A stretch of DNA of 64,000 nt from Tubiluchus corallicola (Eukaryota > Priapulida > Priapulimorpha > Priapulimorphida > Tubiluchidae). Below the pieces are notes generated by a model. It searched no databases. It worked only from the letters and a program-made list of their open reading frames with translations, and was not told where the DNA came from. Positions 5,326 to 50,705 of this stretch are shown piece after piece. Position 1 is the first letter of the stretch. Each line of letters starts with the position of its first letter. The stretch lies in the NCBI GenBank assembly GCA_030141605.1, contig JAQGDQ010002379.1:62001-126000 (forward strand), read 5' to 3'. Position numbers and translations under genes: made by a program.

Positions 5326-6504
5326 ATGCAGGGGATAGGTGTTTGCCTGGTATTGGTATTACTGGCAGGACTATCATCTACTGAAACTCAGCCAGGTAAG
5401 TATTAATTTGGTTTCACATTTTAAATACAGTTTGACGTCGGTTAGTTAAATTATTTCGCCATTATTAGGTGTAAGACATTAAGAAAATGAACATATCTGT
5501 ATCTCTATAAGTTCAGCAGTTGTTTCACTGATTGTTTGATTGGTTTTTTTCAACATGAAATTTTGACAGCAAATGTCTGGAGAATCTTAATTAACGCTGG
5601 CGCAATTTTTGGCAAATTCTTTTTTTCATTTACGGTTTGTGTGGGATTTTGATAAAAGTAAATCAAATGTTATTGATATGAACCTTTGTTTCCGTGCCTG
5701 TGCCGTTAATGAAACACCATTGTTTAGTAGCCAAATTAGCGATGTTACTATGTTTTAAATGTGTTAATCAGAATTTAACAATCCATTGCGATTCCTTCCA
5801 TCTACGATTAACAGCTATCTGTTGGTGAGCATAAACCGCAATCGTTTGTTAAATTCTTTGTTTTCACACTACAATCAAAGACTAATTATCCAAAACACCA
5901 TATTATGGTTAGGTAATTAGTAATTACAGTAAACAGTTAAGTGTAAGTAAACTAACAGTTCCCTTGGTTGGTGACCTAATATTATGCAATAATGAACGCT
6001 AATCCTAAAGAATTTTAAGATACTTTTCTTTCAACTCTTTTTTTTCATAACTAAACATACATGTTTATCCACTTTTGCTAGCTTCAAGCGGAAAATTAAT
6101 TTTTTTTCTTCCTTTGACTCTAGGTCCTCATAATATTAATTTTAAATACGTAAAGGTTAAATTATTATTAAAAGATAGGCACGTGTGTCTCTTCTTTCCC
6201 ATTATTGAACATTATTTTATTATAAACTAACACATTCGTATAACGTTCAATTTTCATTCGTCTTAAATGCAAAATCTGATAATTTTTTATTATCTGATAC
6301 ATGCGCATTAACTAATTAATTATATTAGTAACAATTCTGAGAGGGTGGCTGACCTCGATGACTTATAGTTCTTTCGCCACCCTTTCACCACTAATCAATA
6401 ATTACTTTTGCACTTTGTAATGTTGTATTATTGTATGTTGTATAGATTTATAAATCTGTTAGTTATGTATTTTGCTATTTTAAAAATGGTGATAAACTAA
6501 TAAA

Positions 6505-6550
<46 letters not shown>

Positions 6551-9500
6551 TACTCATGGGATTGAATTAAGAACGCCCGCGTTCACACGTGTCTGTGTTG
6601 TCTAGTCATTGGTTTGAATTCCAAAGGTTTCTGGTTCAAATATATTGTGTTCACTTTACCAATAACTGATAATCTCGAATTTAAACTTATAACTAATTAG
6701 CTAATTATTTTATTTAATTACTTTCCAGAAGTTCCAAGTCATCTTCATGACTACGATTCCTACGTGCGGTTCTGCTTTTACCCGGGGGAGGCAGCTCGAC
6801 GTCCCGCGCCAGCCACGTTCTTACCAGAAGACATCGACCCCTCAACTTGCACGCACATCGTGTTTGGATACGCCACAATATTGGATAATGAGCTGACGGC
6901 CAAGTCAGAGTCAGATTTAGGTAAGTTGCTTGTTGCAAAGTGCTTTTGCCAATATGGTGTTATTGTTTACCATCCAAAGAAATTTCTGTGCTCATTGCGA
7001 TGATGATGATGATTATGGCGACGACGACAACGATGATGATTCAGCTTTAAGTAGAACAGACAAACAAAGCTGCAATGAGATTTTTTATTGCCCACGATAA
7101 ATTACGAATTACAACTACATAACAGAGATTAGTCACACAGGGCAACTACACGTAGCATTTTTTAATTTTTTTATATGACTGTCTTTCGTATCGAACACGC
7201 AACCTCCTGTACGGAGCTCGGACGTTTTACCTATCAGGCTACGCAGCCACTGTATTTGCCTAAGTGTTTGAAGAGAGACAGTACGACGTGACTATTAAAC
7301 GAATACACAACATTGTCGTTCTGGCTATTGAGATTGCAAGCTGAGGTAAAAAGGTATCGAGGTTTAGGGACTGAAGTCGTGGACACTGGGTAGTGGGTTT
7401 TGAGTTTAAACAGGTACTGTGGGTAGAAATACCAAAAAACGTCAGGTCTATTTTATACACTCCCGAAATACTTTTCAGATTGCACGCAAAGTGTTAAAAT
7501 TACTTGAAGATCACCAGTCGAATATTCATTCACGAAAAAAGGTTTATAAATAGAAGTAAATAAGTATAATCATTTTACTAGTTTTACAATCTGTTCACAA
7601 ACCTACTAAATTGACAATATGATAAAAATCATGGTTTTTTGGTTCTTTTCTTAGAGAAGCGGTACGAAATCTCGACTTCACACTTAATCGCATTTAGATA
7701 TAGATCTAGTAACTAATTTAATCTACAGCCAAAGGGAAGAAATAAAATGAGGTCTGCAACATCTTGATGGCTCTGCTTGTTAAATGGTTTCAGCTTATCG
7801 TAGCCCCGAATGCACCACTCATATTTTACGCCTAGCACACGAACGCAGCGCACCCTGTGCTTAACTCCCCAGCCTGTGGTATCATTGATGACTTTCTTTT
7901 CTGGCTAATTATCACATTGGACACAATTCAATTCAATTCAATAATTTTTTATTTGGCTGATTTGCAACACAAAACATTAAACTATATACGTAATGATAGC
8001 AACAATGCGATAACAAAAACAGGTATGGTTTGAAAATTCTACAGAGTAGGATCGTGAACTTTCCAGACTCACCCCGAGACATGTCTTCTGTTCCTGAAAT
8101 GGTAACTCGCGTAATTTCGTAACTTTGAAGCTCGTAGCTCTAATTTTAAATGCTTTTACTCACTTTCTGCATATAGTATTTTTTAGCACTTCTAGTTTTA
8201 GTCTAGGTAAATTTTAATTGTATGTTTTTGTGGCTTTTATGCTGAAATAAATAGTACAATGAATGGATCAATCATAAATCAATCATTCTGACATGCTCTT
8301 CTCCTCACTTCTTAGCTTAACAAACCCAAATGAGGTTCAGTTTTAGTTATTTCAATGGCAAATAAAAAAAATTGATTTAATTTTGCTTTAATTTTGTTGC
8401 GTTTTTCCAACTTTTTTGTTAAATGATAAAGCACATAAAAATTGACGATATAAAACACATTGAAAAATCCCTGGTAAAGACCTACTTAACAATAACCAAG
8501 GTACACGGTGCAAGAAAGCAACAAACTGAACAAAGACCTGATCAAGTAAAAGTGCATTCAAAGCTGTGGTACAAGGAAAAAACCTAATGAAGCAATGAGT
8601 ATTGAAGTAACTTTCCACAAATTTTATATTTTGTCAGAATTTCAAGAGGCCATTTATGCACTTTAACCCATGTCACAAAAATGATGTGTCGCATTCATTG
8701 TTAAACCAAATTTTGAGCTAAACGTTTTTTAAAACATCGTTATTGCATTGTTTAAGACGCTGGTTGGGCTTTAAATTGCTATTTGCAGTAATACCTAACT
8801 AAAAAATCCGTTTGCACTAACTGTTTCTGTCGAAGCATTTAATAAAATTCTTTTTTAGAATTGTTTCAGAGAATCCTGGCCCTAAAAAACCAAAATCCAG
8901 ATCTGAAGGTACTGCTAGCAGTAGGCGGTTGGGCAGAAGGTTCACAGCGTTTCAGCAATATGGCGTGGTCTCTCAACTCACGTCTTACCTTTGTTAATTC
9001 TGTACTTCATTTCCTGAGACAATATGGTTTCGATGGACTAAATGTCGACTGGGAGTTTCCGGGCTACGAACGAAGAGGTGGACATCCTTCAGATAGAGAC
9101 AATTTACCACTGCTCTTAGAGGTATTGATATAAAAATATTAGTAGTATTTGACAGGCTATAACACTCTAACTGCTTTGCTCTTGAAATTCATCTTTTCAA
9201 GCATTTTAAAGCAGGTTGTTAGTTCTGCTAGTTGACCGTCGGTTCTTCGTGTCTATATGGTGTAGTTTTGGCTTGAACAAATTAATGCAAAGTGAGGACT
9301 CTTCTTACCCAATATCTCTGTGTCAATTTTAAATTTATGTACAATTGTGTGTTTAATTTTTAGGAGCTTCACAAGATCTTTACGATGGAAGCCAAGTTTT
9401 CCGGCAACAATCAACTAATCTTGGCCACCACGATACCGGGCGCTAAATACTGGATAGATTTGGGTTACGACATCCCGAAAATCTCTTCGTGCGTTTATAA

Positions 9501-12500
9501 ATACGTTTCTTATTTTTGATGAAAATAATTGGTACTAATAACGCTATTTAAAAGTTGAATTATCAGTGAATGATAAATTATTATGTAGAAGATAACCGCC
9601 CTGCAGGTCAAGTGACTAACCTCAAAATTGTCCTTGAAATCTATCATCTACTACCATTAATCCTTGCAAAGCGCCTTGTGTAAAAAACATCTCTGGTTAT
9701 TTGTGCTCAAAGAGAAAAAGCTTCTCATAATATTCTTGATTTCTAAATGCAGGTTTAGTGATTATTTACCAATGATGACTTATCACCTTAATGGAATATG
9801 GAACAAACACGCTGGTCATGGAAGTCCTTTGCATCCTCACTCCTACGATGTGGACAAAACTGCGAATATTGTAAGTGAAGAGGTCGCCTTTGAAATATCT
9901 TTGTTTTTAGTAATTTCAGTTAAGTGTAAGACAACTTGGAAAATCACACACAAGCAAGGGCAGCATTTTTGTGTCATGTGTGTGAAAGGGATAAATTATT
10001 GGAAAATCACGGAAGCACTTTTGAGACTAATAGCTATGAAGATGCGGTATGATCGTTTTCCTTAGATAACCTAGTAATCTTCCATGCCATATAGTGTTCC
10101 TTGGTTTTTAGGGTACTTGGATAACCTAATAATCTTCCATGCCATGTAGTGTTCCTTAGTTTTTAGTGTACTTGGATAACCTAATAATCTTCCATGCCAT
10201 GTAGTGTTCCTTAGTTTTTAGTGTACTTAGATAATCTAATAATCTTCCATGCCATATAATGTTCCTTAGTTTTTAGTGTACTTAGATAACCTAATAATCT
10301 TCCATGCCATGTAGTGTTCCTTAGTTTTTAGGGTACTTAAATAACCTAGTAATCTTTCATGTCATATAGCGTTCCTTAGTTTTTAGTGTACTTAGATAAT
10401 CTAATAATCTTCCATGCCATGTAATGTTCCTTAGTTTTTAGTGTACTTAGATAATCTAATAATCTTCCATGCCATGTAATGTTCCTTAGTTTTTAGCGTA
10501 CTTAGATAATCTAATAATCTTCCATGCCATATAATGTTCTTTAGTTTTTAGTGTACTTAGATAATCTAATAATCTTCCATGCCATGTAGTGTTCCTTAGT
10601 TTTTAGTGTACTTAGATAATCTATTAATCTTCCATGCCATGTAGTGTTGCTTAGTTTTTAGTGTACTTAGATAATCTAATAATCTTCCATGCCATGTAGT
10701 GTTCCTTAGTTTTTAGTGTATTTAGATAATCTAATAATCTTCCATGCCATATAACGTTCCTTAGTTTTTAGTGTACTTAGACAATCTAATAATCTTCCAT
10801 GCCATATAGCGTTCCTTAGTTTTTAGTGTACTTAGATAATTTAATAATCTTCCATGCCATATAGCGTTCCTTAGTTTTTAGTGTACTTAGATAACCTAAA
10901 TCCTATTATCGTTGCTTTTTTTTAAGGAATTCATCGTCCAATATTGGATAAACCATGGAACGGATCCAAAGAAATTGCTGCTGGGAATTCCTCTTTTTGG
11001 ACAGACTTACACTCTCCAAGACCCATCTGACCACATGTTAAATGCACCTATTGTAGGAAGTGGCAAGGCTGGACACATGTATCAACAGGAAGGAATGATG
11101 CCGTACTACGAGGTTTGTGCCCACAAAACTTTGCTTGAGCTTATTCTTATTAAGATTTTCGGCTTCTTGTGGATTGGTAAACACCAATCTTATTACTGCT
11201 TAAGTGATAGATTTAGCCAACTGAACAACTGATAATGCTTCTTGCGAATATTTTTTGAATGACTTACAGATCTACGTCTTCACTCATAATAAATGAATAA
11301 ATTACGACAAAATTTGCAGATTATAAAGATTCGCAAATCTGTTTCGGAAAATTCACAAACATTTTAATGGTACCAATGTGCGGCATTTGTCACATTTGCA
11401 AATAAATAAAAATTGTGGTTTATTTCTATTAATTTTAATGACTTGCATTACTTAAATCTTTTGTAGGTGTGTTCTGAAGTGATGCCAAGCTATGAAAGCT
11501 TTTGGGTTGAAGATCAGCTTGTTCCATTTGCTTACAAAAATGACCAATGGATTGGCTACGAGGATTCAAGGAGTATTAGTGAAAAGGTAACAATCCTTTG
11601 CAGTATATTTGGACAAGTTCTAGAACTTCCATCACCAAACTTTCACTAATTTTTTTGTACGTATTGTTGACCACAGTTAGCATTCAACTGGTTACTGATC
11701 ACCAACTTTTGTAATTTTTGCAACGCATTTGCATGTTATCAACGGGCCTCATTTTTCCCTGACTGACAATAGGGTTCGTCTAACTAGTTTTTGTTTGTAG
11801 GTCAAGTATGTGATCGACAATCACCTTGGAGGCGTTATGGTCTGGGCATTAGGTTTTGATGATTTTAAAGGTCATTGTAATCATGGAAGGAATCCTCTGT
11901 TGACCACAATAAAAACAGAATTGCTGGAAGTGACACAGGTGACCTATGTAATCCACACAAAATCTTCAAATGTTTTACAGCAGTTGCCGCACAAGTATGA
12001 AACGGGTGCAGTAGAACCACATTATGCAACATCACATCACGGTGAGACGTACAGGCGTCATACTGTGCAACATCGGCGACACTACGTACAACATGTATCC
12101 CATCAGCAAGAAGGACAACACCCTGTTCATGGATATGATGAGCACCATGCCTACCATGGGCACAGTCGCAGTCGCAGAGTGGAGTCATCATATTCACGGC
12201 ACGGGAATTATCACGATGCGTATCCTCATCAAACACAAGGAAGTTACATACCATATCAAGAACACGAAATGATTCCCCACGAAACGTACAATTACGAAAC
12301 ATATCCACACAGAGATGCATATGAAGTCTACCCTAGCAACAGCTATCCTTATGACGCTCACAATTATGTAATATATCTGCCGGAGCAGTATGACGTGCAC
12401 CCTCATCAAACACATGAGAATTACGGTGCATATTCAGCACATGGACAGTATGATGATTTCGAAGTACATCCTCGTGAAAGTTCTGAAATATATCCAGTAA

Positions 12501-14953
12501 ACGAGCCGCATGCGTACCCTTATGAAAAAAGCAATTATTACGATACTTACCCTGGGTCTGAACTCTATGAAGTTCATCCTTATGAAAGTTATGGTTATGA
12601 AACACACCCTGATGAACTGTATGCTGAACATGGACATTATGAAGGGCATCCTCGTGAAACATACCCTGAACATGGACATTATGAAGGGCATCCTCGTGAA
12701 ACATATCCTGAACATGGACATTATGAAGGGCATCCTCGTGAAACATACCCTGAACATGGACATTATGAAGTGCATCCTCGTGAAACATACCCTGAACATG
12801 GACATTATGAAGTGCATCCTCGTGAAACATACCCTGAACATGGACATTATGAAGTGCATCCTCATGAAACATACCCTGAACATGGACATTATGAAGTGCA
12901 TCCTCGTGAAACATACCCTGAACATGGACACTATGAAGTGCATCCTCATGAAACATACCCTGAACATGGACATTATGAAGTGCATCCTCGTGAAACATAC
13001 CCTGAACATGGACATTATGAAGTGCTTCCTCATGAAACATACCCTGAACATGGACACTATGAAGTGCTTCCTCATGAAACATACCCTGAACATGGACACT
13101 ATGAAGTGCATCCTCATGAAACATACCCTGAACATGGACACTATGAAGTGCATCCTCGTGAAACATACCCTGAACATGGACATTATGAAGTGCATCCTCG
13201 TGAAACATACCCTGAACATGGACATTATGAAGTGCATCCTCATGAAACATACCCTGAACATGGACATTATGAAGTGCATCCTCATGAAACATACCCTGAA
13301 CATGGACATTATGAAGTGCTTCCTCATGAAACATACCCTGAACATGGACACTATGAAGTGCATCCTCATGAAGCGTACCCTGAACATGGACACTATGAAG
13401 TGCTTCCTCATGAAACATACCCTGAACATGGACACTATGAAGTGCATCCTCATGAAACATACCCTGAACATGGACACTATGAAGTGCATCCTCGTGAAAC
13501 ATACCCTGAACATGGACATTATGAAGTGCATCCTCGTGAAACATACCCTGAACATGGACATTATGAAGTGCATCCTCATGAAACATACCCTGAACATGGA
13601 CATTATGAAGTGCATCCTCATGAAACATACCCTGAACATGGACATTATGAAGTGCTTCCTCATGAAACATACCCTGAACATGGACACTATGAAGTGCATC
13701 CTCATGAAACATACCCTGAACATGGACATTATGAAGTGCTTCCTCATGAAACATACCCTGAACATGGACACTATGAAGTGCATCCTCATGAAACATACCC
13801 TGAACATGGACACTATGAAGTGCATCCTCATGAAACGTACCCTGAACATGGACACTATGAAGTTCATCCTAATGAATTATATCCTCATGAAGAGTATCCT
13901 GAACATGGACACTATGAAGTGCATCCTCATGAAACGTATCCTGAACATGGACACTATGAAGTGCATCCTCATGAAGAGTATCCTGAACATGGACACTATG
14001 AAGTGCATCCTCATGAAACGTATCCTGAACATGGACACTATGAAGTGCATCCTCATGAAACGTACCCTGAACATGGACACTATGAAGTGCATCCTCATGA
14101 AACGTATCCTGAATATGGACACTATGAAGTGCATCCTCATGAAACGTACCCTGAATATGGACACTATGAAGTGCATCCTCATGAAACGTACCCTGAACAT
14201 GGACACTATGAAGTGCATCCTCATGAAACGTACCCTGAACATGGACACTATGAAGTGCATCCTCATGAAACGTACCCTGAACATGGACACTATGAAGTGC
14301 ATCCTCATGAAACGTACCCTGAACATGGACACTATGAAGTGCATCCTCATGAAACATACCCTGAACATGGACACGATGCATATGAAAGCTATCCAGGCCA
14401 CTATGATACGTATCCATCACATGTTTCCACAGTTGGTATTCCATTTCCACACCATACAGCTTATTCTTATGAAGGGTATCCTACAAATCAATCCTATGAA
14501 CAATATCCACGTAATACTTACAACGATTATGAATTACCTGGTACTGTTGGACACGAGACATATCCCAGTAATACTCATGGGGGCGAAAGCCTTGGCCCAG
14601 TAGTTGCCCAGGAAGAGCAGAGGCCATATAATCCAGAATTGGAGGAAACAAAACTTTCGGATTCCGGTTCATCTGCTTCTGGAAGAAACGGCGCTGTGGG
14701 AATGGCTACAGAAAGTACGCAATGTGAGGTGAAAGGACCAGGTCCCTCTTGCTCCGGACATTCGCACATGGTAATGGCAAATCCAATAAACTGTCGCAAG
14801 TACTATCTATGTCTGTGGCAGAACACACCCAATGAAATGCGTGTTCCAATGAACTGCCCGGAGGGAACAGTCTTTCATCCATTCAAATACATGTGTGATG
14901 ATAAGGAAAATGTTGATACATCCGTAATATGTAAATGTGGAGAAGAGTCGTGA
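5326..14953 (+). CDS. Secreted GH18 chitinase with His/Tyr-rich repeat domain and C-terminal CBM14
   Basis: Endochitinase-like protein predicted to be secreted and bind chitin. Exons: 5326-5395, 6729-6920, 8859-9121, 9364-9488, 9753-9870, 10927-11112, 11467-11586, 11801-14953. All junctions are GT-AG and keep one frame, giving 1,408 residues. A signal peptide (1-20) is followed by a full GH18 domain (about 40-385), including LLAVGGW, DGLNVDWEFPG (catalytic Glu153), KLLLGIPLFGQTYTL and GGVMVWALGFDDF. Residues 385-633 are a loose His/Tyr-rich spacer. Residues 634-1213 are about 42 copies of EHGHYEVHPHETYP. The end (1333-1408) is a CBM14/peritrophin-A domain with the usual Cys spacing. Odd points: the conserved second Asp of DxxDxDxE is Asn149, and the Asp of the MxYD motif is His228. 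An in-frame ATG at 5299 would add nine residues; TTTTTGCAG before 5326 could instead be a splice acceptor. Domain calls are strong; enzyme activity is uncertain. Confidence 0.92.
5396..6728. other. Chitinase intron 1
   Basis: The intron begins GTAAG and ends TTTCCAG. It contains a LINE-like tail at about 6340-6550 (listed separately) and otherwise AT-rich DNA with nothing recognised. Confidence 0.85.
6340..6550 (+). mobile_element. LINE-like 3' end with (GCTT)n tail
   Basis: A GGTGGCTGA-TCGATGAC-TTCGCCACCC stretch able to form a hairpin is followed about 130 bp later by AATAAACTTG and a run of GCTT repeats. A related arrangement occurs at 37865-37997 with a different tail. The pattern matches 3' ends of CR1/Jockey-like LINEs, which often carry short tandem tails; no reverse transcriptase is attached. 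Confidence 0.5.
6921..8858. other. Chitinase intron 2, with SINE and LINE-like relics
   Basis: Starts GTAAG, ends TTTTTTAG. Holds a short GATGAT/GACGAC run near 7000-7040, a tRNA-derived SINE (7080-7250), a minus-strand tail of (TTGAA)n type near 7925-7945 and a plus-strand AATCAATC tail near 8260-8287. Nothing coding was found. Confidence 0.75.
7080..7250 (-). mobile_element. tRNA-derived SINE-like element
   Basis: Read on the minus strand, 7241-7230 is TAGCCTGATAGG, a good polymerase III A box, and 7203-7188 contains GTGTTCGATAC, a good B box. The spacing fits a tRNA-derived promoter. No cloverleaf with matching acceptor arms is obvious, so a SINE head is more likely than a working tRNA gene. 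Confidence 0.6.
9871..10926. other. Chitinase intron 5, mostly minisatellite
   Basis: Intron between the MTYHLNG-coding exon and the LLLGIPLFG-coding exon. It starts GTAAG and ends TTTAAG; over three quarters of it is a 55-bp tandem array. Confidence 0.85.
10062..10898. repeat. 55-bp intronic minisatellite, about 15 copies
   Basis: Unit of 55 bp with core AATCTTCCATGCCATGTAGT and GTTCCTTAGTTTTTAGTGTA, differing by single bases between copies. It lies wholly inside chitinase intron 5. Confidence 0.93.
12626..14376 (+). repeat. 42-bp coding minisatellite in the chitinase last exon
   Basis: A unit beginning GAACATGGACAYTATGAAGT recurs 42 times at 42-bp spacing, with one 15-bp insertion near unit 30. 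It encodes EHGHYEVHPHETYP with substitutions at a few fixed positions (Gly/Val, His/Leu, Arg/His). Units 12-19 and 20-27 carry the same order of variants, which shows a 336-bp block duplication. The unit length is a multiple of three and no frame gains a stop, so other frames and the antisense strand also look open over 1.4-2 kb; those are shadows. Confidence 0.95.
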
Positions 14954-15093: not shown

Positions 15094-15099
15094 AATAAA
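15094..15099 (+). terminator. Candidate poly(A) signal of the chitinase
   Basis: AATAAA lies 141 bp after the stop codon. Further AATAAA motifs occur downstream, so the true cleavage site is not fixed. Confidence 0.45.
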
Positions 15100-16154: not shown

Positions 16155-18486
16155 TTAATAACAATAACATCGTTGGCCACCTACTGGACGATGTAAAGTG
16201 TTATCATGGCGAATCGGACTCGTTGAATATCCATGCTGTCGGTATTTACTGGGATGGCCGTAGCTGTAATCGTCGTTAGCATATCCGCCATTGTGATAAG
16301 TTTTCGTTGATGGATAATCGTAGCCGTAGCCGTCGTAAGAATGGCTTAATATTGGTCGAACTATGTCGTACTTGTATAACGTTTCTGGTTGATAATATTC
16401 ATGGCCTTCCCTAGGACAAGAAGCAAAGCATTTAATTATGTTCATCGACTTGTTAATTAAACTATATTAACCCCGATGTATATACTCGGTGTAGCAATAG
16501 ATGCATTTCAAAAAAAGAGTTAAAATTCAAGCGAGACCACGTGACTAAAATACACATGCAATCGCTGCAGTTGGGTGTTTAAATAAACTTGTTATTCTTT
16601 ATAGTAAAATATTTCGTTAAAATATTTTTATAGTAAAAGAGAAATAAAAAGCGGTTTCTACTGAAAAATTTTCGTATGTCTACGATTTAACTTCTAATAA
16701 AGTCATAACTTACTTTACTGATATTTTGGTAATTGGTTAAAAATATATTAACATAGCTTCTGTTTTAATAAATTTAATAATTTTACGAAGTGCACTGTAG
16801 TGACATCTATTAACGAATAAGTTAATTAATCAGTGTTCTGTGCCCACTGCGAACCTTACAAACTGGTTTTAGGCATGATTGCGTTATCCATCGTTAAACA
16901 AGAAATTTAATAATCACGATCAAGTGAATTTAAACAAGTGAACAGCTGTTTTAAAAGCAAACAAACTAAGTATGATTTCAGTAACACTTGATTTCAGACA
17001 ATGTTGTTCATATAATTTGCCAGATAATTACTATCAAAACAATTTGTTACTTTTTGGCGCTTGTTAAATTGCAAAACAATATAATAAGTTTCAGCCGTTT
17101 TGAATTATAACTTTAGTTTAGTTTTGTTTAGTTTTGTCTGTATGCTTACTTGTAATCGTAGTCGTAACCTCTAGATTTTGCTGAGGTCTCCTTCGCGTAG
17201 GATTTATCTTGACTAGTCAAAGTTCCGTGAGCCCGACCAGAGCGAGAAAATGAGGTTTCGCTACTTTTCTGCCCATCTCCTTCCAACTTGCCTTTGCTCA
17301 CCGGTCCGTACGTTGTGGTGTGAAAATAAGTTTTTGGAGCTGGTGCTACTTTGTGATAGGCTGCTGTGTTGCCCTTATAGCCGTGTGGAACAGCACCTCC
17401 GGGAGCAAACGCCACATCGTTCCGGTACGATGGCCCACTGGCGCTTACCATGCTAAGTACAGCAACGGCTAGAACGGCAACAAGAATCGTATCCCTGCAA
17501 CGAAAATTTGCATTAGCCTTGTGTTAAGTGCACAGGTAAGAAGTGTATCATCATCATGATCATCGCCGTCGTCTTCATCGTAGTTGCATTCATCATTCGT
17601 CATTATCATCATCAAAACAGCAGCAGCAGCAACAGCAATAGCAACAACGACAACAACAACAACAATTACTTCTACAACTACATTACTATTACTGCTACTG
17701 CTACTAAAACTACAACAATAATTACAACAACAGTAGCATGATTAACAGTAACAACGACGGTAGCATCAGCAACAAGCAACATCAACATTATAACTACCCG
17801 GAACTGGTATTTGCCAGATGATAAAGTTCCCAACTCTTACAAGCATGGGTCTAAATTCAACTTAAAATTTGAAACAAAAACTTTTGCAAAATTTAGATTT
17901 ACAGTTTAAGAACGTGGTCCTAATTCTGAATTTTCGCATCTTTTTAACATGTTTATTTAAAAAATCAATTAATTGAATAAGCTTTGAAATCAGTAATGAG
18001 CATAAGTATCCACTTTTTTAAAGAAAATTGCACAAACGTGGATGTAAAAATACGTCAAAAGCTTGTTGTGCGCTTCAGTACTAAGTTCGCACTATAATTT
18101 GCAAATTTTACAAATAAATTTACATTTCATTATTAACAAGAAGATAATATTATTAGATAACATTATTGTAATCCTTTTATAGAATATTTCAATTACAAGC
18201 TGTTATTTCGATACTATTTTTGTAGTTTTAAACTTCAAATCAAACGTTTGCACATTTTTTTTTAAATTGATTATTTATGCTGACTGCTGAATTGAGCAAA
18301 TTAGACTAGACTGCTGATCAAAAATTTTAAACTTGCTAATAAAAAACATTTTCAGAAAATGAATAGGACTCTGTGCATCGTTAATTTATAAAGCTAGCAA
18401 CTAAATGACTTTTTACAGATTTATCAAAATCATTCAAACGTTTACATCAAGTTTTGAAATAAAAAAACAGTTACTCGCACTTACAT
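16155..18486 (-). CDS. Secreted Tyr/Gly/Ser-rich protein, about 200 residues, unknown function
   Basis: Exons on the minus strand: exon 1 ending at 18485, exon 2 17494-17150, exon 3 16410-16155. Exon 1 ends in AT before GTAAGTG and exon 2 starts with G, so the start codon would be split AT|G. This gives MDTILVAVLAVAVLSMVSAS, a clear signal peptide. Exon 2 ends AA before GTAAGC and exon 3 starts G, joining YDYDYK to EGHEYYQP in frame; the total is 603 nt. The mature protein is rich in Tyr, Gly, Ser and His, with short YDYD, YGYDYP and YSYGHPS segments, and ends QRCYCY. No family is recognised. It is convergent with the chitinase; a matrix or cuticle role is only an inference from composition and location. 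A weakness is that exon 1 contributes just two coding bases. Confidence 0.7.
17540..17770. repeat. Trinucleotide-rich stretch in intron 1 of the Tyr-rich gene
   Basis: Mixed CAT, GTC, CAG, AAC and ACT triplet runs. No gene call is made from the short open frame they create. Confidence 0.8.
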
Positions 18487-20704: not shown

Positions 20705-20823
20705 GTCTACGGCCATATCACATTGAATACACCGGTTCTCGTCTGATCACCGAAGTTAAGCAATGTAGAGCGTGGTTAGTACTTGGATGGGGGACCGCCT
20801 AGGAATACCACGTGCTGTAGACT
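20705..20823 (+). rRNA. 5S ribosomal RNA
   Basis: A 119-nt match to the metazoan 5S pattern, from GTCTACGGCCATATCAC through CTCGTCTGATCACCGAAGTTAAGC and GTTAGTACTTGGATGGG to GGAATACCACGTGCTGTAGAC. The 5' GTCTAC pairs with the 3' GTAGAC. The internal control region (A box, intermediate element, C box) is intact and a TTTTT terminator follows. It transcribes the 5S component of the large ribosomal subunit by polymerase III. First copy of an array with an 823-bp unit. Confidence 0.93.
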
Positions 20824-21157
20824 TTTTAGCTAGTGACTATTAACTATCAAAGTGTGTGCACAACACGACCGTTTCATTTTGACAGTATTGTTTTTGATTT
20901 TTGGAAGTTGAAGTGGTGAAAATAAATGTCTGTCTCGACATTATGTTGATTTTTTTTGCATTTTAATGTGAAAGACTATCTACTTGTTGCATTTCTCCAA
21001 TATTATACAAAGTAAGGAAAAATGAAAATAAAACTAGAAAATCAGCCACTGTCCTTCAAAAATGATTTTTGATTTTCATAAAAAATCAAAACAGATACTT
21101 TGTTACTACGTTCACCTTCATCTATCTATTATTTCTATATTATCTGTCTATAACAAA

Positions 21158-21217
21158 ATGCAGAAGTTAAGCAACCTCAAACCTGGTTTTGCGTTTGAAT
21201 GGGTGACTGCCCGGTAC
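21158..21217 (+). pseudogene. Degenerate 5S-like copy in the 5S spacer (copy 1)
   Basis: GCAGAAGTTAAGCAACCT and GTTTGAATGGGTGACTGCCC match the 5S A box/intermediate region and C box at 5S-like spacing; the flanks have lost the 5S sequence. The same motif recurs once per repeat unit. Confidence 0.7.
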
Positions 21218-21527
21218 TTACATTTTTCTAAATGATCAGGAAGGGTGATGACAAATGCTGTAAGATCTTTTTCACCACTCAAAAATGGATTTTTGTTCTG
21301 ACAAATATTTTTAAATGAAGAATCTTTTTGCTTGTTCATGCTTGATCATTCCCATGTTTAATTATGTCATATCTAGAAGGTAATATACTTAAGCACGGTA
21401 TTCAACCTCCCTGACATTTTATAATTTCATGTGATATTTCTGTTTATACTTTGCATTAAAATGCTAAAAAGGTTTACTTGTTCATGTACATCATTTCTAT
21501 GTTAACTCATCTTAAGAAACTGTTAAT

Positions 21528-21646
21528 GTCTACTGCCATATCACATTGAAAACACCGGTTCTCGTCTGATCACCGAAGTTAAGCAATGTAAAGCGTGGTT
21601 AGTACTTGGATGGGTGACCGCCTAGGAATACCACGTGCTGTAGACT
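21528..21646 (+). rRNA. 5S ribosomal RNA
   Basis: Second full 119-nt copy, 823 bp after the first. It differs at a few bases (GTCTACTGCC, GAAAACACC). Internal promoter and T-run terminator are intact. Confidence 0.9.
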
Positions 21647-21810
21647 TTTTAGCTAGTGACTATTATCTATCGAAGTGTGTGCACAACACGACCGTTTCAT
21701 TTTAACAGTATTGTTTTTGATTTTTGGAAGTCGAAGTGGTGGGAATAAGTGTCTGTCTCGACATTATGTTGATTTTTATTTGCTTTGCATTTTAATGTCT
21801 AAAACTATCT

Positions 21811-22060
21811 AGTAGTAGTAGTAGTAGTAGTAGTAAAATCTTTATTCGCCATTATAAAACATTGACCATCATATTAAAAGACAGACAATCAGTGTTAGTC
21901 CATATAAAAAACATACACTGTTCTAGGCAAATGCGTCTGGTGCAAGCTAAACTATAAGTGCAACTAGAAATTCAAAAAATAAAATATAAACTAGTTTAGT
22001 AAGGTCTAGGAAAAATGAAATTATGATTTGAGTAAGTATCATCGTGTTCGTATGTCGGAT
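21811..22060 (-). mobile_element. LINE/SINE 3' fragment inserted in the 5S spacer, with target-site duplication
   Basis: A 250-bp insertion starting with (AGT)n and reading on the minus strand as a retroelement 3' end (GGCGAATAAAGATTTT then an ACT-repeat tail). It is flanked by AATGTCTAAAACTATCT (21794-21810) and AATGTCAAAAACTATCT (22061-22077). The paralogous unit near 34309-34330 shows the empty site. Confidence 0.85.
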
Positions 22061-22255
22061 AATGTCAAAAACTATCTATTTGCTACGTTTCTCGAATATT
22101 ACACAATGTGAAGAAAAATGAAAATAAAACTAGAAAATCAGCCACTGCCCTTCAAAAATTATTTTTGATTTTCATAAAAAATCAAAACAGATACTTTGTT
22201 CCTACGTTCACCTTAATCTATCTATTATTTCTATATTATCTCTTTTCAACGAAAT

Positions 22256-22314
22256 ACAGAAGTTAAGCAACCTGGAACCTGGTTTGGTTTTGTGTTTGAA
22301 TGGGTGACTGCCCT
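22256..22314 (+). pseudogene. Degenerate 5S-like spacer copy (copy 2)
   Basis: Same A-box/C-box remnant as at 21158, here with a small GTTTGGTTTT insertion. Confidence 0.65.
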
Positions 22315-22413
22315 TGGCTTACATTTTTTTAAATGGACGGGAAGGGTTCTGACAAAAGCTGTAAAATCTTCTTCAACACTCAAAAATGGATTTTTGTTCT
22401 GACAGATATTTTT

Positions 22414-24471
22414 GTAAAACTATGTCACGAAGATTTTGCATATTGTGTTTTTTTGTTCCACATGTGTGCGCCATTTTTGTTCCAGTGGCAAAATTCGATT
22501 TTATGCGTGATAAACAATTTACAGTTTTAAATAAATCTTTTTGTATTAAATAATTGGAACTTATCCGTGATTGTATTTATATTTTGGTACGGAACTGCCG
22601 GGAAAAGAGACCTTTAGATGAGTATGGCTGAGTGTGATAAAATTAAACACTCTAGAAGTAGATCCAAGGGTTGGGTGAAGACTGGCATAAAATTACTAAA
22701 AGAGGCGATGTCTAGTGAAACGCCTAACTTTGTGTTTGTTCAGCAAAAATTAGAGAACCTTGGAAAATATATTGCCACCTTTAATGAAACAGAAGTGTAG
22801 TTAGAAGATTATTTAGAAGGTGAAGAACTTGAACAAGCGATTATAGAGGCAAGTGAATTAATCAACACAGCGGAATTAATTTCTGCTCAGGCACTAAGTT
22901 TGCTAAAACCAGATTCAAGACCATGTAGTCCTAGTGATTTCCAGCGACATGCAAGTGATAATGATTTTGTCTTGCGACGAGTGAATAACTGTGATTTAGC
23001 ACGTAGTGAAAGTGCAGCGAATTTACCAACTAATAATGTAGTCGGTGCAGAAGTCACCAACATAAAACTACCTAAATTGCAACTGCCAACTTTCAGTGGT
23101 GACCCATTGAAGTTTTACGAATTTTGGGACATGTTCGTTGCCTCTGTGGATGCTAAACCTGTACCAGACGTTCATAAACTTGTTTACTTAAAGAGCTTAC
23201 TTAAAGGTGAAGCTGCTCATGTGATAGATGGCCTGCAGCCTGTAGATGGCAATTATAAGGAAGCTGTTTCTTTGTTAAAGGAGAGATTTGGTGATAAAGA
23301 CGCAATCGAGATGTCATTGTTAAAAAAACTGTGGCAGTTAAAGCCCATCACCGATTCGAAAAATATTGAAGCACAAGGAAGTTTTGTAGATGAGCTTGAA
23401 GTTGTTATAAGAGGCCTCAGTGCAATGGGACTTAGTACAGAAGAATTAGGTAAAACCCTAAAACCTCTCTTTCTAGCAAAAATTCCATATGCTTGGCGTG
23501 TTGAATGGGAGTGAATGAGAAGGCGTGAAGATGACAGCGTGAAGATGACACAACATGCTTTGAAAAATTTCGACAGTTCATGAAAAGCGAAGTTGATATT
23601 AGACGAAAGGCTGCTTCATATACTCGCCATAGAGAGTCTGGTGAATTTAGTCGTCGTGCTGGGTATAAGAATTTAGGTGTGAGGAGCACCCTAGATTCAG
23701 TTTCTCTTCTTCAGTCTAGTGATTTTTGTGGAAACACCAAAAATGCGCCTACAGCTTCAAAGAATTCCCATTGTTTATTTTGTGGCAGAGCTCAACATAT
23801 GTGGCTTGATTGTGCGTCTCTTCCTACTAAGACTTTGCAAGAGCGAAAACAGAAGGTTGCTGAGCAGCACCGTTGTTTTTTGTGTCTTGGTTTAAACCAC
23901 AGAGCTGATACTTGCCGTAAACCTCCATGCAACCGATGTAGTAAATGGCATCATTATTTATTGTGCAATTCAATTGCTGGCTGCTTCCAGGTGAGTCCTT
24001 ATGTTAAAAGAGGTTCAAATACTTCTGATGCAAGTGTTGATGTTCCATCAGTTCATTTACAGTCTTTTTGTACGAATGTTGTGTTCTTAATGACTGCGAC
24101 TGCTGTTTTGGAAGATACCAAATCGTCAATTCCTATTCGTGTTTTTATAAATCCTGGTGCCACTACCTCTCTTATTTTGTGTGATGTTGCAGAGCGAGCA
24201 GGTTGCGAAATTATAGGCGAGCGTAATCTTTCGTTAGCTATTATGGGTGGACTTAGCACACCGCAACAGAAATGCCACATTGTTCGTGCTAAACTTCGAA
24301 CAAATACAGGAAAAATTGTGACCTTTAATGCCACCACCCAAGATAAACTAGTGAGACCCTTTCCGGCATGTTCTGAGGGTGATTGGTTAGGAGACTTAAA
24401 GGGCATGATCCTAGGTGACCCAGAGATTCTTTGTGGCAATCCACGAGAAATTCATCTACTGGTTGGTATCC
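22414..24471 (+). mobile_element. BEL/Pao-type retrotransposon fragment within the 5S array
   Basis: The 5S spacer stops after GACAGATATTTTT at about 22413 and resumes near 24472. The insert carries gag and protease parts but no reverse transcriptase, integrase or long terminal repeats, so it is a truncated copy. The spacer resumes at an earlier point than where it broke off, so array rearrangement accompanied or followed the insertion. Confidence 0.85.
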
Positions 24472-24482
24472 CCCAAAGATGA
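22618..24482 (+). pseudogene. Broken BEL/Pao gag-protease frame
   Basis: In order: a gag N-terminal segment from 22618; an in-frame TAG at 22798; a DUF1759-type gag core at about 23060-23510 (LPKLQLPTFSGDPLKFYEFW); a TGA at 23512; a change of frame; Cys/His zinc-knuckle segments at about 23770-23970; and a DUF1758-type retropepsin-like domain at about 24110-24470. A 14-bp tandem duplication near 23522-23550 coincides with the frame change. The usual active-site Asp-Ser/Thr-Gly is replaced by Asn-Pro-Gly near 24150. With two stops, a frameshift and no pol region it cannot encode a working element. Confidence 0.85.
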
Positions 24483-24580
24483 TTTTTGATTTTTATAAAA
24501 AAAAATCAAAACAGTTTACCTTGTTCTTGTGTTTCGCTTAATCTATCCATTATTTCTACGTTATCTGTCTGTAACAAAAT

Positions 24581-24639
24581 GCAGAAGTTGAGCAACCTCG
24601 AACCTGGTTTTGCGTTTGAATGGGTGACTGCCCAGGACT
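24581..24639 (+). pseudogene. Degenerate 5S-like spacer copy (copy 3)
   Basis: GCAGAAGTTGAGCAACCTCG then GTTTGAATGGGTGACTGCCC, as in the other spacer relics. Confidence 0.65.
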
Positions 24640-24811
24640 TGTAAATTATGTCATATTTAAAAGGCAATATACTTGAGCACGGTATTTCCACCTCCCTGAT
24701 ACTTTACAATTTCATGTGATATTTTTATTTATACTTTGCATTACAATACTAGAAATATTTGCTGTTCATGTACATCATTTCTATGTTAACTCGTCTTAAG
24801 AAACTGCTAAT

Positions 24812-24930
24812 GTCTACGGCCATATCACATTGAATACACCGGTTCTCGTCTGATCACCGAAGTTAAGCAATGTAGAGCGTGGTTAGTACTTGGATGGGTG
24901 ACCGCCTAGGAATACCACGTGCTGTAGTCT
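24812..24930 (+). rRNA. 5S ribosomal RNA
   Basis: Third full copy with intact internal promoter and T-run. The 3' end reads GTAGTCT rather than GTAGACT, which weakens the terminal stem by one pair; it may still be functional. Confidence 0.88.
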
Positions 24931-25362
24931 TTTTAGTGATTGACAATTATCTAGCGAAGTGTGTGCACAACACGAACACTTTAGATTGTCTTTGATTTTT
25001 GGAAGTTGAAGTGGTGGAAATAAATGTCTGTCTCGACCTTACGTTGATTTTTATTTTTTTGCATTTTAATGTGAAAAACTATCTATTTGTTACGTTTCTC
25101 GAATGTTACACAAGGTAAGGAAAAATGAAAATAAACTAGAAAATCAGCCACTGCCCTTCAAAAATGATTTTTGATTTTCATAAAAAATCAAAACAGGTAC
25201 TTTGTTATGCTTGGAAATCGTAGTAATCGTAGTATGCGTAGAAAATCAGCCACTGCCCTTCAAAACTGATTTTTGATTTTCATAAAAAATCAAAACAGGT
25301 ACTTTGTTACTACGTTCACCGTAATCTATCTACTGTTTCTATATTATCTCTTTTTAACGAAA

Positions 25363-25425
25363 TGCAGAAGTTAAGCAACCTCGAACCTGGTTTGGTTTTG
25401 CGTTTGAATGGGTGACTGCCCGGCG
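25363..25425 (+). pseudogene. Degenerate 5S-like spacer copy (copy 4)
   Basis: Same remnant; its C-box-like part ends GGGTGACTGCCCGG. Confidence 0.65.
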
Positions 25426-25769
25426 ACTGCTGATGCTGGTAACTTCTTAACTTGGTGCTTAGACTTTTTTAAATGGTCAGGAAGGGTGATGAAAAATGCT
25501 GTAAGATCTTCTTCACCACTCAAAAATGGATTTTTGTTCTGACAAATATTTTTAAATGAAGAATATTTTTGCTTGTTCATGCTTGATCATTCTCATGTTT
25601 AATTATGTCATATTTAGAAGGTAATATACTTGAGCTCGGTATTTCAACCTCCCTGATACTTTATAATTTCATGTTATATTTTTATTTATACTTTGCATTA
25701 CAATACTAAAAAGGTTTGCTTGTTCATGTACATCATTTCTATGTTAACTCGTCTTAAGAAACTCCTAAT

Positions 25770-25834
25770 GTCTACGGCCATATCACATTGAATACACCAG
25801 TAATCGTCTGATCACCGAAGTTAAGCAATGTAGA
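25770..25834 (+). pseudogene. Truncated 5S rRNA, first 65 nt only
   Basis: Matches the 5S gene from GTCTACGG to TTAAGCAATGTAGA, then breaks directly into a 17-bp minisatellite. The C box and 3' half are missing. It also carries two changes (ACCAGTAATCG). Confidence 0.9.
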
Positions 25835-26605
25835 CTATTGTCTACAGTGCACTCTTGTCTACAGTGCACTCTTGTCTACTGTGCACTATTGTCTACAGTG
25901 CACCCTTGTCTACAGTGTACTCTTGTCTACAGTGCACTATTGTCTACAGTGCACTATTGTCTACAGTGCACTCTTGTCTACTGTGCACTCTTGTCTACTG
26001 TGCACTATTGTCTACAGTGCACTATTGTCTACTGTGCACTATTGTCTACAGTGCACTCTTGTCTACTGTGCACTCTTGTCTACTGTGCACTATTGTCTAC
26101 TGTGCACTATTGTCTACTGTGCACTATTGTCTACAGTGCACTCTTGTCTACTGTGCACTCTTGTCTACTGTGCACTATTGTCTACTGTGCACTATTGTCT
26201 ACAGTGAACTCTTGTCTACTGTGCACTATTGTCTACAGTGCACTCTTGTCTACTGTGCACTCTTGTCTACTGTGCACTATTGTCTACTGTGCACTATTGT
26301 CTACAGTGAACTCTTGTCTACTGTGCACTATTGTCTACCGTGCACTATTGTCTACCATGCACTATTGTCTACTGTGCACTATTGTCTACTGTGCACTCTT
26401 GTCTACAGTGAACTCTTGTCTACTGTGCACTATTGTCTACAGTGCACTCTTGTCTACTGTGCACTCTTGTCTACTGTGCACTATTGTCTACTGTGCACTA
26501 TTGTCTACAGTGAACTCTTGTCTACTGTGCACTATTGTCTACCGTGCACTATTGTCTACCGTGCACTATTGTCTACAGTGCACTATTGTCTACTGTGCAC
26601 TATTG
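25835..26605. repeat. 17-bp minisatellite, about 45 copies
   Basis: The unit TCTACAGTGCACTATTG recurs with two main variable positions (A/T after TCTAC, A/C in CACT[AC]TTG). As 17 is not a multiple of three, the same peptide series appears in all three frames; none of these is a gene. Confidence 0.95.
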
Positions 26606-26673
26606 AGCTTTAAAACCAAGACTTCGTATACTTAAAAGTAAAAGGTCATTTACTGCCATTGTCAGCAAAAACA

Positions 26674-26802
26674 ATGGAGAAAAATCGTGGCATGGATTTT
26701 TTGCAAAAAATTACGGATTCATGCAACCAAAGTCCACTGCAAGATGCTGCAGACTTCGACGAATTATCAGCAGCTCAGAAAATTACACAGAAAAAAGCTT
26801 AG
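26674..26802 (+). CDS. Possible 42-residue ORF or terminal exon
   Basis: Directly after the minisatellite, an ATG opens a 42-codon frame starting MEKNRGMDFLQKITDSCNQS, with mixed composition unlike the surrounding AT-rich DNA. CATTGTCAG just upstream could be a splice acceptor. No family or partner exon is recognised; it may be chance. Confidence 0.22.
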   Translation: MEKNRGMDFLQKITDSCNQSPLQDAADFDELSAAQKITQKKA

Positions 26803-26809
26803 AATCAAT

Positions 26810-28010
26810 GCGATTAGCTGCATTAAAGACCTTCGGTTACACCAAGAGACTTAGCTAATTAACTTCAGTAATTGCTATAATGTAGTTGCTTTGTGACATA
26901 TGCTGTGATTACAATCCCACATATTCGCCTGTTTTTCCATTACTTCCTTGTATAATTGTTGTCTGATAAACAGTTTCTCTGTCTGTTCTTTGTTCTCTGC
27001 TTGATTGGTTGGTTGGGTGGCATACTAGCTGTCAGACATTGGTTGATTGGTTGTTTGGTGAGTAAGTCGGTTGTTCAGACAACCGATTGGTTGGTTGACT
27101 GATTGAGAAGTAGGTGTAGTTCTGAATGTGCTTGTCGTGTTGTACACTGGATGCATGTCTCCTAGCTTGCTTACTTGGAAAGCTTTTTAGGTGCTTTGCA
27201 GAGTAGTGAGTTGATTGTGTGTTTTCTTTTATTTGACTGATTAATTTTCAAGTTTAATTTGTTTCCATGACACTTTCGCGTTAACTGTATTTTGCCGCTT
27301 GATATTGTTGGGATATTTCTCAGATATAAGGCATTACATGTGTTCCATTAATGTAATTAGTCAATTGTGTTCGTGATTTCGCTCTTTGTCCCTTGTATAG
27401 CTGTTTTCCATGTAACAGATTTCTGTGTATTATCTGGTCTTCAATATAAAAATCATGTACGTCTTTATGTTATTACTTTGTAAGCTTTGTACCTTTACTA
27501 AATTTAGCTGCTTATGTTTGCATTTGCATACAAACCTTAGTTCACATTTTTATAGTTATTTGTGCTATTTGTACTTTACTTTTCATTAATTTCTATTAAC
27601 TGTAGAACTTATTGTTAATATATTATAATGTTAATATAATATAACAATTATCATATTGACAATTTTGCTGTTCTTTTTTACAAAAATTTATTTCTCACAA
27701 AGAAGAGTTTCAGAATTATACACAACCGATTTAGATTTCTATTTTTAACGTCTCATGATAAACGTGCAGCGATTAACTTTTAATTTATTTTCTTTGTATG
27801 GAGAATCCTCAAAACGACTCGAATCGAAACAAGGGAATATTTTACCTTCACATACAGATATAGTAAAGATAACTTAGACTAGCATTTACATCTTTTACAT
27901 TAGAAAAACATTGAAAAGGCAGTCTGAAATATAACAGCTACAAGTGGATCTGAAACAAACGTGGATATATCAAGGAGAAGTGGATCTACGTCAAGCACGG
28001 ATGGACTCCG
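26810..28010. other. Intergenic, low-complexity GATTGGTT-rich part
   Basis: Includes a GATTGGTTGGTTG-rich stretch at 26995-27105; the remainder is AT-rich with no supported gene. Confidence 0.45.
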
Positions 28011-28100
28011 GATCTGTTGAAGAACTATTCTACTGTCCATAACTGTAGAAGTATTGTAAAAAGAATGTTCAATCTATGTTCAACTTGGGAATCACAGGAT

Positions 28101-29052
28101 TTACCAGAAACCACCACCGTATCCACGGCCATAAGATACACGTCCGTAGCCACCAAGTCCACCGTATCCACGTCCGTAGTAACCACGGCCATATCCACCA
28201 TATCCACCAAATCCACCATATCCACGTCCGTAGTAACCACCGCCATATCCACCAAATCCACCGTATCCACTTCCATATCCGTAACCTAATCCACGTCCAT
28301 AGCCAAGGCCACGTCCATAGCCCAAGCCTCGTCCGTAGCTGCCACCATAAAATCCGCTGGCACTGACTACAGCAACCTACAAATGTATTATCAATGAAAC
28401 TGTTGTACAAATGAACTTATCAATGAAACTGTTGTACACGTGAACTTATCAATGAAACTGTTGTACAAATGAACTATCAATGAAACTGTTGTACAAATGA
28501 ACTATCAATGAAACTGTTGTACAAATGTACTTATCAATGAAACTGTTGTACAAATAAACTTATCAATGAAACTGTTGTACAAATGTACTTATCAATGAAA
28601 CTGTTGTACAAATAAACTTATCAATGAAACTGTTGTACAAATGAACTATCAATGAAACTGTTGTACAAATGTACTTATCAATGAAACTGTTGTACAAATG
28701 AACTTATCAATGAAACTGTTGTACAAATGAACTTATCAATGAAACTGTTGTACAAATGTATTATCAATGAAACTGTTATACAAATAAAAACTTCTTGTTC
28801 TTTTAACTTCTTTTGTCTCCAAATGTAATTAAATAGTTTGACTGAAATGTTGTTGGCTAACACAAACCAATGCCAAGTACATGTGTCGACGTACTTTGAT
28901 TGATGCAGTAAAGGCTACGTTGTATTAAATAGAAACGTGAATGTAAATTAACTAGGTGTGGTACTCGAACATGAACAATTGGCTAAATTGTGAAATTCCG
29001 TCCATAGACGACTTACCAAAACGGCAAGGAGGAAAGCTAGAGTGATCTTCAT
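28101..29052 (-). CDS. Secreted glycine/tyrosine-rich peptide, 103 residues
   Basis: Exon 1 (29052-29017) encodes MKITLAFLLAVL, exon 2 (28376-28101) continues VAVVSASGFYGG, so the intron lies within the signal peptide in phase 0. The mature part is YGRG/GYGG repeats (for example GGYGGYGRGYYGRGYGGLGG), ending GGGFW then TAA. This composition resembles nematode YGGYG-type antimicrobial NLP peptides and shell or cuticle glycine-rich proteins; such low-complexity similarity does not prove homology. A further 5' UTR intron is likely: TTCTTGTTAG sits four bases before the ATG, and a donor (ATT|GTAAGTA) at about 29889 follows a TATA-like box. The mature peptide has no Cys. Function (defence, cuticle or matrix) is open. 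Confidence 0.82.
28380..28790. repeat. 28-30-bp minisatellite in the glycine-rich gene intron, about 14 copies
   Basis: Units contain TCAATGAAACTGTTGTACAA with an alternating ATGAACT/ATGTACTTA linker. The array starts immediately next to the exon 2 splice acceptor. Confidence 0.92.
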
Positions 29053-29056
29053 TTTC

Positions 29057-29888
29057 CTAACAAGAAAAAATATTTAATTAACAAACTAGAACTTGAATGG
29101 GCATTCGATAAAAAATCAATAATTGTCATTTTCCAAATTATTTTAGCATAAAACTGACAATGCTCTAATGATCAATGTTGTTTGGTGAAGAGACTGCAAT
29201 CAAAAGTGATGAAAACTCACCTAATGCTGATCAAGGGTTAAATAAAGTGTTTGATACATGTATTAGTACAACATGTATTATACTAAATTTCGCAAAAAAG
29301 AAGACAATTAGTCAGTTTGTGCTAAATTTCTTTGGTAGCCAAAGTTAAGCAGTCGCAAAAAGACTGTGAAGCATCAATGAACGCCTGGATTAAGTTTAGA
29401 TTATGCCGGTTTAGTAGCGGAAACCGTTTAAAACAGAATTTTGATACGTTCAATATTTTGATGGCTTAGAGGTAAACGTATTATGTAAAATTTGCAATAA
29501 ATTAAGACATTTGTGCTAAATTTCCTTCTTAGCAAAAATTAAACAAACTCGAAAAGCTAAAAGAGACAAAAACGGGGATAGGTATGTACATTTTACGTTT
29601 TCAAACAGTTTCCCTTACTGACTCGTACGTTTCAAAATGTAAAATAATTTCGTCTCAATCTTGCTACTCCTATATTGTAGATAAAGTTTGTCGTAAATGT
29701 TAAGATAAAACGAAACATCTTGTAAGTTTACTCTTCAAAAAATACCACTGAATGTATTACCAAGAAATCTTTCAAACATTTTAAAAAAAGTTGCCGTTTG
29801 TAACGATAAAAAACGCAGTTCGTAAGATGACTAGGTCATATACTAAAACTTCAAAATGCTTACTTTAGTAATAGTAAAAAATACTTAC
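29057..29888. other. Probable 5' UTR intron of the glycine-rich gene
   Basis: Bounded by a GTAAGTA donor and a TTCTTGTTAG acceptor on the minus strand. AT-rich, nothing else recognised. Confidence 0.5.
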
Positions 29889-29964
29889 AATTATAAGTTG
29901 AGTTGAGATTCGTGTGGTACCACAGACGACAGGCGTATGGTAGCAACACCGGTCTCATCACGCC

Positions 29965-29972
29965 TTAAATAC
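29965..29972 (-). promoter_or_regulatory. TATA-like box of the glycine-rich gene
   Basis: TATTTAAG on the minus strand about 80 bp upstream of the proposed 5' UTR donor. No other promoter element is clear. Confidence 0.45.
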
Positions 29973-30344
29973 TTCCATCGGCTGGTGACCATGAGAGTCA
30001 AGCTCTTAATCACAGATACCTGAAGTCAGCAGCAGCAGTAGCAGCCGGATTTTTAACGAACAACCTTCTGTCACCCATCAAAATAAAAGTGTTGTTTTCT
30101 GTCCTGAGAGACCGCGCATGTAATTTAAAGCCCTAGCAAGGCAGTTACTGAATATGAAACAAACAGAAAAACAATGACGTCTCTGTGCATTACCAGTGTA
30201 AATTAACGTTAGTGGAAGGTTGGAAAAACGCCTTTTATTTGAATGCATGTGTTTTGTTGATACTGATAATTATTTTCCCTAAAAAAACTTGAAGGGTACA
30301 GGGGGTAAGTGATTTGTAGTTAATTGTGCTCAACAGAAAATTGG

Positions 30345-31816: not shown

Positions 31817-31822
31817 TTACTC

Positions 31823-32554: not shown

Positions 32555-32559
32555 CTTTA

Positions 32560-33140: not shown

Positions 33141-33149
33141 ATTCATTTA

Positions 33150-34040: not shown

Positions 34041-34043
34041 CAA

Positions 34044-50700: not shown

Positions 50701-50705
50701 AGTAA

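Follow-up and report, generated by a model that had tools for sequence, protein, structure and literature searches.

Introduction

Chitinases of the chitotriosidase/AMCase type share with the gene described here a signal-like start and the order GH18, then CBM14; the protein predicted from our locus differs from them in its worn active site and in the approximately 930 His/Tyr/Glu-rich residues that separate the two domains. Tandem short His-rich repeats, the other main feature of the locus, are also found in mussel foot protein 4 (mfp-4), a protein of a DOPA-bearing material in which these repeats may bind copper. To our knowledge, mfp-4 has neither a chitinase nor a chitin-binding domain, and its repeat sequence differs from that of our array. 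The jaw protein of nereid worms is Gly-rich, whereas our array contains 7.7% Gly.

Several hardened materials have been described in which similar components occur. Squid beak is reported to contain His-catechol cross-links and two protein families, one that binds chitin (DgCBP) and one rich in histidine (DgHBP) (PMC9716703). One hard material thus combines both properties, as may be the case at our locus, but they are divided between two families there and lie in one chain, together with GH18, here. TcCP30 from the elytra of Tribolium is a protein of 171 residues with 36% Glu, 21% His and a pI of 5.8; it occurs with chitin, and laccase 2 mediates its cross-linking, for which His is the suggested site (PMC4440208). 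It resembles our array in being Glu/His-rich, of low complexity and acidic (pI 5.8 versus 5.55), and differs in its 171-residue length and in being rich in Arg and Gly rather than Tyr and Pro; the passages available describe no chitinase or CBM14 domain in it (PMC4440208). The jaw-tip protein of nereids contains up to ~27% His, compared with 25.2% in our array, and zinc there is partly imidazole-bound (PMC8410824). The same source reports bromine enrichment in the mechanical structures of a priapulid; in such structures from several phyla, among them those of a nereid, a pycnogonid and a priapulid, the bromine is most likely carried by singly brominated phenyl rings. It further describes the Zn-rich tip material of arthropods as containing little chitin or none at all, and reports that a single His together with water binds most of the Zn (PMC8410824).

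Chitinases themselves are reported from shell and radula in a brachiopod and mollusc context (PMC4595640, PMC9263180, PMC6351634). Within the open-licence PMC literature, as far as its available passages go, we found no GH18 protein with a His-rich repeat; in the one paper found that combines GH18 and chitinase with “histidine-rich repeat,” the phrase concerns metal transporters. In the available passages on Priapulus caudatus, chitinase is mentioned once and in general terms (PMC6170570), and the open-licence literature found, likewise in its available parts, named no cuticle or tooth matrix protein of scalidophorans.

Here, we characterize a chitinase-like gene in a 64-kb stretch of DNA with 35% G+C (hereafter, the window). 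We lean, with slightly more conviction than doubt, towards reading its product as a secreted, chitinase-derived structural protein that would be anchored on chitin and would carry a His/Tyr array for cross-linking and/or for metal or halogen loading.

Results

Gene structure and reading frame

We built the gene model by homology and inspection, with the translation in one unbroken frame. This resulted in a complete model of 8 exons that encodes 1408 residues. All seven introns have AG/GT borders, and the upstream exons join in frame to give a whole GH18 domain.

5326..14953, plus strand: whole coding region, 8 exons, predicted model (exon joining, AG/GT borders)
5326-5395, 6729-6920, 8859-9121, 9364-9488, 9753-9870, 10927-11112, 11467-11586 and 11801-14953, plus strand: the exons
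5326..5395, plus strand: exon 1, signal-peptide-like N-terminus MQGIGVCLVLVLLAGLSSTETQ (translation, judged by eye)
6773..11860, plus strand: GH18 domain, residues 39-378, exons 2-8 (Pfam PF00704, E 1.8e-78)
9041..9043, plus strand: codon of Asn149, which replaces the second Asp of DxxDxDxE; Glu153, further along, is kept
11933..12625, plus strand: non-repeat His/Tyr/Glu-rich spacer, 231 residues (composition; stop-free in frame)
12626..14362, plus strand: array of 41 full units of EHGHYEVHPHETYP, then a broken 42nd copy
14363..14716, plus strand: broken last unit and Tyr/Ser/Gly/Glu-rich tail
14717..14950, plus strand: CBM14 (peritrophin-A) domain, 78 residues, 8 Cys (Pfam PF01607, E 4.3e-11)
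15094..15099, plus strand: AATAAA polyadenylation-type signal, 141 bases past the stop (motif match only)

The signal-peptide-like stretch covers the first ~22 residues or so, as judged by eye, and the protein is probably secreted. The last exon (11801-14953) is a single open frame that runs from the end of GH18 through the spacer and the array to CBM14 and the stop codon. Its 423 non-repeat codons after GH18 contain no in-frame stop; a first-order Markov model of the window puts the chance of this at ~2e-13. We judge this frame to be real because it continues from GH18 through these codons to CBM14 without a stop; the openness of the array alone proves little, as its other frames are open too. 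The placement of GH18 and CBM14 in one gene, proposed in a preliminary description of this DNA, is borne out by this stop-free frame. That description also had the last exon joining the end of GH18, a spacer, the repeats and a six-Cys domain; the single open frame agrees with it, but the exon starts at 11801 and the C-terminal piece has 8 Cys. Overall, the gene is intact by structure in this predicted model.

The window is unusually rich in tandem arrays. One of them, a 55-bp minisatellite of 15.3 copies (10061-10899), lies in an intron of the chitinase-like gene. This intron array is likewise free of indels, so the lack of frameshifts in the coding array is weak evidence.

The GH18 domain and its active site

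By sequence, the enzyme-like domain belongs to the GH18 family (PF00704, 264.9 bits against a cut-off of 29.6). Its closest PDB matches are structures of human chitotriosidase (330 bits), with similarity extending to residue 399, and its best identity among the matches listed is ~41%, to snail and vertebrate proteins. To read the active site, we compared it with 181 homologous domains of >250 aligned query residues each, which came from 119 of 120 proteins (the best 120 of 230 matches). The DxxDxDxE motif reads DGLNVDWE, with Asn at the second Asp, a position that holds Asp in 175/181 homologues and Asn in 3/181. The MxYD motif reads MTYH; at its last position the 181 homologues have Asp in 156 cases, Asn in 20 and His in none. 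Gln replaces the equivalent of Arg269 (Arg in 153, Met in 18 and Gln in 2 of 181), and Glu replaces the equivalent of Trp31 in the first-strand part of the cleft (Trp in 155/175, Glu in 1/175). Neither the DxxDxDxE nor the MxYD motif of active GH18 chitinases is complete. The catalytic Glu153 is kept, as it is in 174/181 homologous domains, and so are the third Asp (167/181), the Tyr of MxY (176/181) and the last Trp of the cleft (174/180). The replaced residues, Asn149, His228, Gln282 and Glu44, stand at the positions of D136, D213, R269 and W31 of chitotriosidase, respectively.

Changes of this type strongly cut activity in GH18 mutants, and those found here would be expected to lower it as well. 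Our reading includes, as an important element, a chitinase activity that is probably reduced or silenced in spite of the retained catalytic Glu, and the worn site is an addition to what the preliminary description had proposed. We built a tree of 47 rows from the window domain and 46 of the 181 domains, all selected from named proteins; in it, the end branch of the window domain measured 1.27 against a median of 0.29, with one scallop domain longer (1.95). No supported (starred) set in this tree contains the window domain.

It is possible, if fairly unlikely in our estimation, that the protein is a chitinase that still acts, perhaps weakly, in moulting, digestion or immunity and whose usual linker has been replaced by an expanded His-rich tether that spaces the domains or tunes pH behaviour. 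Some activity may remain, since the protein retains the Glu, the third Asp, the Tyr of MxY and the final Trp of the cleft and since, in the available passages on an insect chitinase, Glu is named as the residue whose loss abolishes activity (PMC3097210), so that the classic inactivating change is absent here. The order GH18-CBM14 is also common to many animal chitinases among the matches listed. Such an enzyme would nevertheless have to work with Asn, His, Gln and Glu at sites that are nearly always Asp, Asp/Asn, Arg/Met and Trp/Phe in the 181 domains. It would do so at the end of a long GH18 branch and with ~930 residues, two thirds of the protein, lying between its domains.

Spacer, array and tail

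The region between GH18 and CBM14 begins with the 231-residue spacer, which contains 15.6% Tyr, 13.4% His and 10.0% Glu, and ends with a tail of 114 residues. Between them lies the array, whose 14-residue consensus unit (EHGHYEVHPHETYP) has four His, three Glu and two Tyr, just as had been noticed earlier; the ~42 repeats first estimated come to exactly 41 full units plus a broken 42nd (41.3 copies by TRF). Unit length is 14 residues in 40/41 units, and unit 30 carries a 5-residue in-frame insertion. The array consists of 25.2% His, 21.8% Glu, 14.6% Tyr, 14.2% Pro and 7.7% Gly, contains no Lys, Cys or Trp and has a computed pI of 5.55. His4, Tyr5 and Tyr13 are invariant (41/41 units), while His2 is kept in 39/41, His8 in 35/41 (Leu in 6) and His10 in 29/41 (Arg in 11, Asn in 1). 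HxH motifs occur 63 times, as 40 HGH and 23 HPH. Using textbook pKa values, we computed a charge of ~0 at pH 5.5 that changes to ~-116 at pH 8.

Only 14 distinct DNA units occur among the 41. Neighbouring units differ by 1.42 bases on average, compared with 2.41 over all pairs, and a run of seven unit types is repeated eight units further on. From the likeness of neighbours, the 14 unit types and the recurring run, we conclude that recent duplication enlarged the array, which is therefore probably variable in length. Differences of units from the consensus are synonymous in the coding frame in 37/65 cases; counted as distinct changes, 4/13 are synonymous, compared with 24/126 possible ones, and selection on the array is for this reason only weakly indicated.

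This history raises the prospect of a near-neutral minisatellite expansion in the linker, by unequal exchange or slippage, in which the His/Glu/Tyr make-up would have no special job. The array could be such a by-product because the window is rich in minisatellites, one of which (55 bp × 15.3) lies in an intron of the same gene; the recent growth and the mere 4/13 synonymous distinct changes are also in keeping with it. The spacer, however, is not repetitive and is itself His/Tyr/Glu-rich in the same frame, which suggests that the bias in composition predates the array. Both Tyr and His4 are moreover unchanged in 41/41 units, and 37/65 unit differences are synonymous. On balance, we regard neutral expansion as quite improbable.

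We searched 5.8 billion proteins for relatives of the spacer, array and tail, using residues 120-1050 of the last exon as the query; none of the 3532 candidates, which were ~577-1837 residues long and shared exact five-residue words with the query, had E ≤ 0.001. Within this length range, no histidine-rich beak or jaw protein matched the His-rich part at that threshold either. Against PDB sequences, the array had no match at E up to 1. We also performed AlphaFold2 on a single sequence of 24 units, which returned a regular coil with two strands per unit (mean pLDDT 66.2, pTM 0.65, the five models spanning 66.2 down to 35.8). A second run with the last units and CBM14 gave one strand per unit and CBM14 at low confidence, a poor model. 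Foldseek of the array model against the PDB returned 6 matches at E up to 10, none at 0.001, with a best TM of 0.20. AlphaFold2 tends to invent such coils for near-perfect repeats, and we therefore claim no fold for the array.

CBM14 and comparison with GH18 relatives

The C-terminal domain matches PF01607 (CBM14) with 43.2 bits against a cut-off of 22.1 (E 4.3e-11, and E 9.4e-9 within the whole exon), and chitin binding is its predicted function. In the PDB it comes closest to chitin-binding beak protein 3 of squid (E 2e-5). The match is a likeness within the CBM14 family and, at the sequence level, no evidence of orthology.

The preliminary description had called for a search of GH18 relatives for His-rich linkers. 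Among the best 120 of 230 GH18 matches, the next highest His content per 100 residues is 11%, with one protein set apart. This protein, from Scortum barcoo (P0064), reaches 22% His in a 100-residue window, and we judged it to be a prediction artefact because its YNHNS runs appear to be an ACN (Thr) linker translated in a shifted frame. The domain arrangement of our gene is absent from all relatives among the matches listed, and a hardening role is plausible.

That the protein is a soluble metal-storage or transport protein of body fluid, with His pairs carrying zinc or copper and the chitin domains incidental, is very improbable: it would suit the 63 HxH motifs of the array, and a metal-binding His-rich glycoprotein is known by name from mussel haemolymph (PMC9263180), but the high Tyr and Pro content and the chitin-type domains at both ends would point to a fixed matrix.

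A possible role in hardened chitin

We judge the protein to be most likely a chitin-anchored structural component of cuticle, hooks or teeth because it has the same ingredients as squid beak, beetle elytra and nereid jaws. That a chitinase base carries a chitin protein with a structural, metal-binding or pH-responsive role had been proposed from the first look at the DNA. This idea is supported in part, as it agrees with our findings, and it is strengthened by the worn active site and long GH18 branch together with the 63 HxH motifs and the computed charge swing.

In the mechanism that we propose, GH18 with its worn site at one end and CBM14 at the other would both hold the chain on chitin, and the load would be the His-, Tyr-, Glu- and Pro-rich stretch of ~930 residues between these two anchors. 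At the ~pH 5.5 of an acidic secretory granule, this chain would carry almost no net charge, which could allow dense packing. At the pH of sea water, the His side chains would be deprotonated and might then react with oxidised catechols or, as HGH and HPH pairs, bind metal; Tyr would be a candidate for hydroxylation, bromination or cross-linking. The outcome might be a hardened chitin-protein layer, for example in cuticle, hooks or teeth. A more specific version, in which a one-chain hardening protein of a priapulid-type tooth or hook matrix clamps chitin with the eroded GH18 and CBM14 while its array takes up zinc or copper, or becomes brominated and cross-linked, we consider unlikely as a whole. 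The hardening chemistry could involve metal, catechol or bromine. We do not favour a chitin-anchored Zn matrix, as the Zn-rich tip material of arthropods is described with little or no chitin and with Zn mostly on one His.

If the structural reading is true, the gene would encode a candidate for the matrix of cuticle or teeth in a scalidophoran. It would also show that an enzyme domain can be taken over to tie His-rich material to chitin, which parallels the materials of squid beak, beetle elytra and worm jaws, and one molecule would unite two jobs that are split between two protein families in squid beak. The 14-residue unit with its computed charge switch could then serve as a simple system for asking which chemistry hardens non-mineral teeth.

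Neighbouring genes and other features of the window

Two small genes lie within 15 kb of the chitinase-like gene.

16155-18486, minus strand: small secreted-looking gene, three exons, 200 residues with 25 Tyr, 21 Ser and 21 Gly
28101-29052, minus strand: secreted-looking Gly/Tyr repeat gene, two exons, 103 residues with 44 Gly and 19 Tyr

The start codon of the Tyr-rich gene is split AT/G by an intron, and pieces of both genes had no Pfam match. The presence of these two secreted-looking genes, one Tyr-rich and one Gly/Tyr-rich, strengthens the structural reading; they fit an extracellular-matrix neighbourhood and prove nothing about the chitinase-like gene itself. The intron of the Gly/Tyr repeat gene contains a 29-bp tandem array.

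A cluster of CYP2-like P450 exons, recognized by eye in the list of open reading frames, occupies 37112-61347 on both strands. From one of its genes (47821-53762) we joined 374 residues in four pieces, with the central exons missing. The best named matches of this gene are four Priapulus caudatus proteins (41-46% identity), and two further sequences score higher (52 and 48%). We placed it in a tree of 26 rows, made up of the window gene and 25 of the best 120 matches and covering one gene family. Six Priapulus rows and seven others group with the window gene, and this clade is split from mollusc, annelid, echinoderm, amphioxus and vertebrate rows with support of 96/94. The row nearest to the window gene is one of the seven others. 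A brachiopod or mollusc origin, which we had first entertained in view of the chitinases of shell and radula, was given up on this result. The grouping suggests that the host is probably a priapulid or another scalidophoran, not necessarily Priapulus, and such a priapulid-type host likewise strengthens the reading of the chitinase-like gene as a structural protein.

Seven matches to 5S rRNA, of which a single one is on the minus strand, are dispersed within 20705-34928 and vary in quality from 40 to 113 bits. A DUF1759 piece found with Pfam lies at 22801-24482 on the plus strand; this domain is typical of BEL/Pao retroelements. Finally, Pfam identified a C-type lectin exon at 32334-32576 on the minus strand.
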